This document shows positions 30,404 to 32,081 of a DNA stretch of 64,000 nucleotides, in pieces. Origin of the DNA: Utricularia gibba. Lineage: Eukaryota > Streptophyta > Magnoliopsida > Lamiales > Lentibulariaceae. Within the stretch, counting starts at the first letter, position 1, and the number at the start of each line of letters is the position of its first letter. Made by a program: the position numbers and the translations under genes. The notes below the pieces were generated by a model, which saw only the letters and a program-made list of their open reading frames with translations, did not search any database and was not told the origin of the DNA. Where the stretch lies: NCBI GenBank assembly GCA_002189035.1, contig NEEC01000009.1, positions 2,294,001-2,358,000 on the forward strand, read 5' to 3'.

Positions 30404-30650
30404 ATGGTGAAGCTTACTATGATTGCGAGCATTACGGATGCCCTAGCGCTAGTCGAGGGACTGTCTGATGGCCGTGATGTTCCTGATGCTGAATTTTATA
30501 AGCATCAAGCTAAGTCTTTGTTTAAGAGGCTGTCTGTGGGGCAGAATGAGCCATCAAGAATGTCGATCGAAACAGGACCTTGCATGTTTCAGTATTCTAA
30601 GGTACAGTAGATGGGTTTATTACATTGTGGATCACTCATATTATAAATGA
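30404..30650 (+). pseudogene. Decayed 5' fragment of a SEC22-like R-SNARE gene
   Basis: SEC22 is an R-SNARE of ER-Golgi traffic with an N-terminal longin domain. The start MVKLTMIASITDALALVEGL, then DGRDVPDAEFYKHQAKSLFK and SRMSIETGPCMFQY, match the first 60 or so residues of plant SEC22. After that the frame is broken: the frame used so far stops at 30610, while the matching continuation (RWVYYIVDHSYYK, against the family's RVCYLTLCDRSYPK) is in another frame with further small losses and stops at 30650. The rest of the longin domain, the SNARE helix and the anchor were not found downstream. A truncated short peptide could still be made. Confidence 0.75.
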
Positions 30651-30969: not shown

Positions 30970-32081
30970 ATGATTTTTTCTTCTCTGCCTGCTTATCTTG
31001 ATACTACATCAAATTGGAACCAGGTTAGGGTTTCTGCTTTTGCTTTCCTTTTTTTTTTGTGTGTGTGATCTTCCATGGCTAAAGCAGGACTTTCAAAAAG
31101 ATAAAGAAGATATTCCTTCTTTCTCTTTATCTTTTATCTGTTGTTGTTTTGATTTCTTGAGCTTCAGAGTCACCAGGTTATTGGAAGTAGCAGTGGAAAC
31201 AGCAGTTTGATCCCTTCTCTGCAAGCTTCCCAGCCACATGGCGGTGGTGGCGCGGCGGTTGTCCGGTCGGGATCTATGGTGGAGCGTGCCCGTCTCGCTA
31301 ATATTCCGATGCCCGAATCGGCTCTCCGGTGCCCTCGGTGCGACTCCACCAACACCAAGTTTTGCTACTTCAATAATTACAGCCTTTCTCAGCCTCGCCA
31401 CTTCTGCAAGTCTTGCCGAAGGTATTGTTGGAATATTTTCCAGGGAGTGTTCCAATAAAATAATCATAGTGTTCAAACAGGTATTGGACCAAGGGCGGCG
31501 CGTTGAGGAACGTGCCGGTAGGAGGCGGTTGTCGAAGAAACAAAAGAAGCAAGACAAACGCCTCCAGGGCTCAGACAAGAAGTGAACGCCCAAACACAGC
31601 CACCGCTTCCGGATCTCTTCCTGCTAACACCACCGGCGGTGGCGGCAACGGTGGCTTGACACCCCAACTGCCCCCTCTACGCTTTATCCCGCAACTATCG
31701 GAAAACTTCAACACCGCTCACGAAATGGTGGGAAGCGATCTGCTCAACGGTGGCTCACTGGCGCCACTCTTCTCATGCAGCGACGGTAGCCTCGAGCAGT
31801 GGCGGTTTCACCAAGCGCCGCAGCTCAGCTTCATGGATCCATCGCCGGAGTTCCAGCACGGCGAGCCGCCGTTTATCGTGGCCGATATGCTGCAGCCTAC
31901 CAAGCACTCCGAGCGATTCTTCCCTCAAGGCGAATCAGTGAAAACGGAAGAAAACCCTCAAGTGAATCCACCAAGGCAAGCGATGGGAGCAAAGCTACAT
32001 GGAAATGATCATGATTGGAGCAACGCACCCTCTTCATGGACTGAGTTTTGCTCACCCTCTACCACCACCAACCGCATGTAG
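30970..32081 (+). CDS. Dof zinc-finger transcription factor with a 59-bp intron inside the finger
   Basis: Dof factors bind AAAG sites through a single C2C2 zinc finger. Exons 30970-31023, 31168-31421 and 31481-32081 sum to 303 codons (302 residues). The N-terminus [16 protein letters not shown] and the pre-finger [12 protein letters not shown] resemble the OBP3/DOF5.1/DOF2.4 group. The finger has [28 protein letters not shown], then [19 protein letters not shown]; the four zinc cysteines are present. The codon for the second Arg of CRR is split by a 59-base GT-AG interval containing an in-frame stop. Dof introns usually lie before the finger. The C-terminal half is Gly/Ser/Pro-rich and ends [15 protein letters not shown]. 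Without removal of the 59 bases the protein would end inside the finger. Confidence 0.9.

Follow-up and report, generated by a model that had tools for sequence, protein, structure and literature searches.

Introns of plant Dof genes have been placed upstream of the zinc finger and, in a few cases, downstream of it (PMC5032028, PMC9370771); in the literature searched, including these two surveys, we found no description of an intron within the finger itself. Dof genes have at most one intron in Medicago polymorpha (PMC10181442) and, reportedly, in Arabidopsis (PMC8067633). Only three Dof genes of poplar have two introns, including Potri.008G055100 and Potri.010G205400 (PMC9281594), both annotated as OBP3 homologues (PMC6770981), and the poplar PEAR1 candidates likewise consist of three exons and two introns (PMC10488302). 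In the Lentibulariaceae, the median intron of Genlisea aurea is 89 nt (PMC3728226). Introns attributed to double-strand break repair in Daphnia are recent and have a short in-register repeat at both junctions (reviewed in PMC3443670).

The Dof gene studied here lies on the forward strand of a 64,000-nucleotide stretch of the Utricularia gibba genome (the window, meaning the whole stretch analysed). It has two introns, and its spliced protein is 299 aa long when the acceptor consistent with its paralogues is used. The features of the gene are:

30970..31023, + strand: exon 1 of the Dof gene (spliced model), with the start codon and a motif common to six paralogues
31024..31176, + strand: the usual upstream Dof intron, GT...CACCAG, from comparison of the six paralogues; this acceptor is the probable choice
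ending at 31166, + strand: alternative acceptor CTTCAG of the upstream intron, from the same six-paralogue comparison
31177..31421, + strand: exon 2, coding for the N-terminal part of the Dof finger including its four zinc-binding Cys; read from the sequence, it ends two bases into the second Arg codon of CRR
31420..31427, + strand: first AGGTATTG, across the donor site (read from the sequence)
31422..31480, + strand: finger intron, from the sequence and from three paralogues with an intron at the identical site
31425..31458, + strand: inverted repeat and predicted intron-RNA hairpin of 15 pairs (folding, -14 kcal/mol, z -3.2)
31479..31486, + strand: second AGGTATTG, across the acceptor site (read from the sequence)
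31481..32081, + strand: exon 3, with the basic C-terminal part of the finger and the C-terminal region, to the stop codon (spliced model; dN/dS 0.27 against the paralogue C411)

By direct reading of the sequence, the finger intron (GTATTGTTGGAATATTTTCCAGGGAGTGTTCCAATAAAATAATCATAGTGTTCAAACAG) is 59 nt long, GT-AG and phase 2, and it splits the second Arg codon of CRR (CKSCR-AG/G-YWTKGG; CRR/YWT) at a perfect protosplice site (AAG/GT). The original prediction had these boundaries correct to the base, and its further description was borne out: the interval begins GTATTG, ends ACAG, is AT-rich (32% GC), is not divisible by three and contains a stop in the read-through frame. The reading frame is open on both sides, and excision of 31422-31480 restores CKSCRRYWTKGG and recovers the exon frame. 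With a 5' GT, a 3' AG and the frame regained after excision, the interval has the marks of an ordinary U2-type spliceosomal intron that would be removed in the plant.

The prediction was also right that a finger intron is atypical for Dof genes, given the positions in the surveys cited above, and that 59 nt is short. For comparison, 27 introns were reconstructed from CCT/chaperonin genes of the Utricularia gibba genome; their lengths are 66-202 nt, with a median of 98 nt. The finger intron resembles U2-type introns of the Lentibulariaceae in its GT-AG ends, AG/G exon junction, AT-richness and small size, yet at 59 nt is shorter than all 27 measured here. Its unusual features are the location within the Dof finger and the shortness.

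When the whole genome (100.09 Mb in 516 contigs) was searched with the Pfam Dof model, about 45 Dof domains were identified, four of them split, all at one identical codon: the window gene, C411:554.6k, C98:2888.3k and C1:1739.3k. Their finger introns (59, 67, 69 and 78 nt) are all GT-AG and phase 2 and occupy the identical site. In the two nearest intronless relatives, C3:1199000 and C414:3052737, nothing interrupts the finger, and its junction reads seamlessly AGRAGGTATTGG (AGRAG/GTATTGG). All six genes have, with small variations, an M.FSS N-terminus, the upstream intron after M.FSS, and RPGSMAERAR.ANIPMPE before the finger. We take the M.FSS...RPGSMAERAR hallmarks to be those of the OBP3/PEAR-like Dof subfamily, of which the window gene would then be a member. 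No Dof relatives were found in bacterial/archaeal or viral contig collections.

Several of the Dof copies showed individual peculiarities. The 69-nt intron of C98 (L031) is a multiple of three and has no in-frame stop, so its retention would put 23 residues into the finger. In the 78-nt intron of C1 (L033), a further acceptor-like TTGCAG precedes the inferred acceptor by 24 bases. The C-terminal regions of C98 and C414 (L019) each contain one frame break next to a C run, possibly reflecting long-read homopolymer errors. Three more Dof genes (L034, L036, L042) go out of frame within the second half of the finger or shortly past it; the breaks lie at or close to G runs and are assembly errors or mark pseudogenes.

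The window and C411 introns are homologous and still alignable (0/500 shuffles), and they lie in collinear segments, each with a SEC22-like gene in identical orientation upstream of the Dof gene. Since both copies carry the homologous intron in such segments, it is older than the duplication that separated them. The SEC22-like SNARE gene is represented in the window by its first exon only (30404-30601; 81% identical to SEC22 exon 1 of C411), while the C411 copy has kept all exons; the truncation is a case of fractionation after duplication. Alignment against shuffles gave no clear sign that the C1 and C98 introns are homologous in sequence to that of the window, as expected at dS above 1; given their identical site and phase, the intron should be older than the deeper duplications as well.

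Protein and codon trees were built on the full spliced CDS of the six genes. The unrooted tree divides them into (C98,(C3,C414)) and (C1,(window,C411)) with 97-100% support. Synonymous divergence (dS) is 0.60 for window-C411 and 0.45 for C3-C414, rising to 1.24 for window-C1 (about 1.1-1.2 for C1 against window/C411). C98 differs from C3/C414 by 1.1-1.6, and genes on opposite sides of the tree differ by 1.3-2.7. One position and one phase are thus common to four diverged paralogues at dS of up to 2.7 (window-C98). On these comparisons the finger intron is not recent but older than two or more duplication rounds. The part of the original prediction that stands is a short intron in the finger, at a site absent from the Dof surveys cited above; its recent gain does not, as three paralogues share site and phase, two of them at dS above 1.

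The reading we favor, with a probability of about 0.88, is an ordinary old U2-type intron inherited by four paralogues and most likely lost once toward C3/C414. The intron would be older than two or more duplications, of genes or of the genome, in this lineage and would have passed to window, C411, C1 and C98; a single, precise loss most likely took place on the branch leading to C3 and C414. Under a midpoint root, the intron is placed in the ancestor of all six genes, with a single loss before C3 and C414 diverged. Loss on this branch is likelier than early gain, although the outgroup Dofs do not fix the root; recent gain is rejected.

The 8-bp direct repeat described in the original prediction is present at both junctions and in register, and would arise, under an old inherited intron, from the splice-site AGGT plus four matching bases beside the invariant Tyr-Trp codons. 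The window contains AGGTATTG five times, where 1.9 occurrences are expected. The in-register repeats of the 27 comparison introns extend over 0-5 bases, which makes 8 an unusual length for any one intron; the repeat is nevertheless only mildly beyond chance. The splice signals account for AGGT, and the Tyr-Trp codons dictate the exon copy GTATTGG, leaving just four intron bases free to match. From donor frequencies counted by hand in the 27 introns (A3 16/27, T4 6/27, T5 6/27, G6 2/27), the chance of the four-base match is ∼0.2% per intron, and a whole genome, with presumably many tens of thousands of introns, should therefore contain many such repeats. The in-register repeat is 8 bp in window and C411, where it is one inherited state, but 5 in C1 and 2 in C98; it can thus not be taken with any confidence for a target-site scar of the founding event.

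The predicted inverted repeat (TTGGAA...TTCCAA) was found inside the window intron, internal rather than terminal, and forms the 15-pair hairpin listed above. The C411 intron RNA has a different predicted fold (z -2.4), and RNA folding of the C98 and C1 introns gave no such hairpin; a conserved RNA structure was accordingly rejected. Window and C411 share their first 16 intron bases (GTATTGTTGGAATATT; window 31422-31437 and, on the minus strand, C411:554692-554708) without a difference despite a dS of 0.60, and the two introns are diverged beyond them. These identical bases and the window hairpin might reflect constraint or conversion.

Among the alternatives to an old inherited intron, the one that survives best, although we regard it as unlikely, is a lineage-specific gain: the intron would have a single origin in the stem lineage of the four paralogues that carry it, after C3 and C414 had branched off and perhaps by insertion at the AG/GT protosplice site, and would then have been duplicated. 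When outgroup Dofs of the same genome are included, the four intron-bearing genes are weakly grouped (56/94), as this scenario expects, but forcing C98 to join C3/C414 comes at a cost of only 2.7 log units (p 0.27), so that the root is not fixed. A gain is also favored by the perfect protosplice site and by the Dof surveys, which place no intron in the finger. Against it, the well-supported unrooted tree joins C98 to C3/C414, to which the dS and dN of C98 are on average smaller than to the other copies; with C98 so paired, a single gain needs the root on the C3/C414 branch. Alternatively, introns may have been gained in parallel at this one site. The poplar PEAR1/OBP3-like genes also count against lineage specificity, as they have a second intron, published without its position. 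Like the window gene, Potri.008G055100 and Potri.010G205400 have three exons and belong by their OBP3/PEAR annotation to the same broad subfamily, a likeness in intron count, since the published text gives no intron positions. This suggests that the finger intron may date from before the divergence of asterids and rosids, with a later loss in Arabidopsis. The limit of one intron in the Dof genes of Medicago polymorpha, by contrast, speaks against the old-intron reading. A single gain after the split from C3/C414 would in any case still precede the later duplications.

More doubtful is a gain specific to the Lamiales or Lentibulariaceae in which a founding 8-bp target duplication was kept in two descendants and decayed in the others. 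That the window gene itself acquired the intron recently, through insertion or repair of a staggered break and with AGGTATTG as the target-site duplication, is very improbable. Such an event would explain why the in-register repeat exceeds those of all 27 other introns, and the finger intron does resemble the double-strand break repair introns of Daphnia in this repeat; the latter are recent, however, whereas the finger intron is common to four old paralogues, with the repeat lost in the deeper copies. The recency of any insertion is refuted by the intron-bearing paralogues, namely the homologous intron with an identical repeat in C411 and the introns at the identical site and phase in C1 and C98. 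Copies of the 59-bp word, for which the original prediction had suggested a search, were limited genome-wide to the window and its C411 duplicate, and no transposon ends were found at the insert.

An origin by tandem duplication of AGGT-containing exon sequence, a documented mechanism (PMC3443670) with which the AGGT of the junction repeat agrees, has equally little to commend it and was rejected, as the intron is no more similar to the 150 exon bases on each side than shuffled sequence is (score 8, shuffled mean 7.9), although the signal could have decayed since the origin. With no further genomic copy and no exon similarity, neither a mobile intron nor tandem duplication is indicated. Finally, a disabling insertion, with the 59 bases retained in a pseudogene, is scarcely credible, since the splice sites are canonical, three paralogues are arranged alike, and purifying selection acts on the codons 3' of the intron (dN/dS 0.27 for window against C411, and 0.10 for the finger part), which would be difficult to account for if the insert stayed in.

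For the study of intron turnover, the locus carries a caution: splice signals and codon constraint by themselves create part of a junction repeat, and paralogues should be checked before recent gain is inferred from one. Were the gain specific to the Lamiales or Lentibulariaceae true, it would provide a datable intron birth at a plant protosplice site. The six-gene family, four members with the intron and two without, is small and clean enough to serve the study of intron loss in a compact genome.
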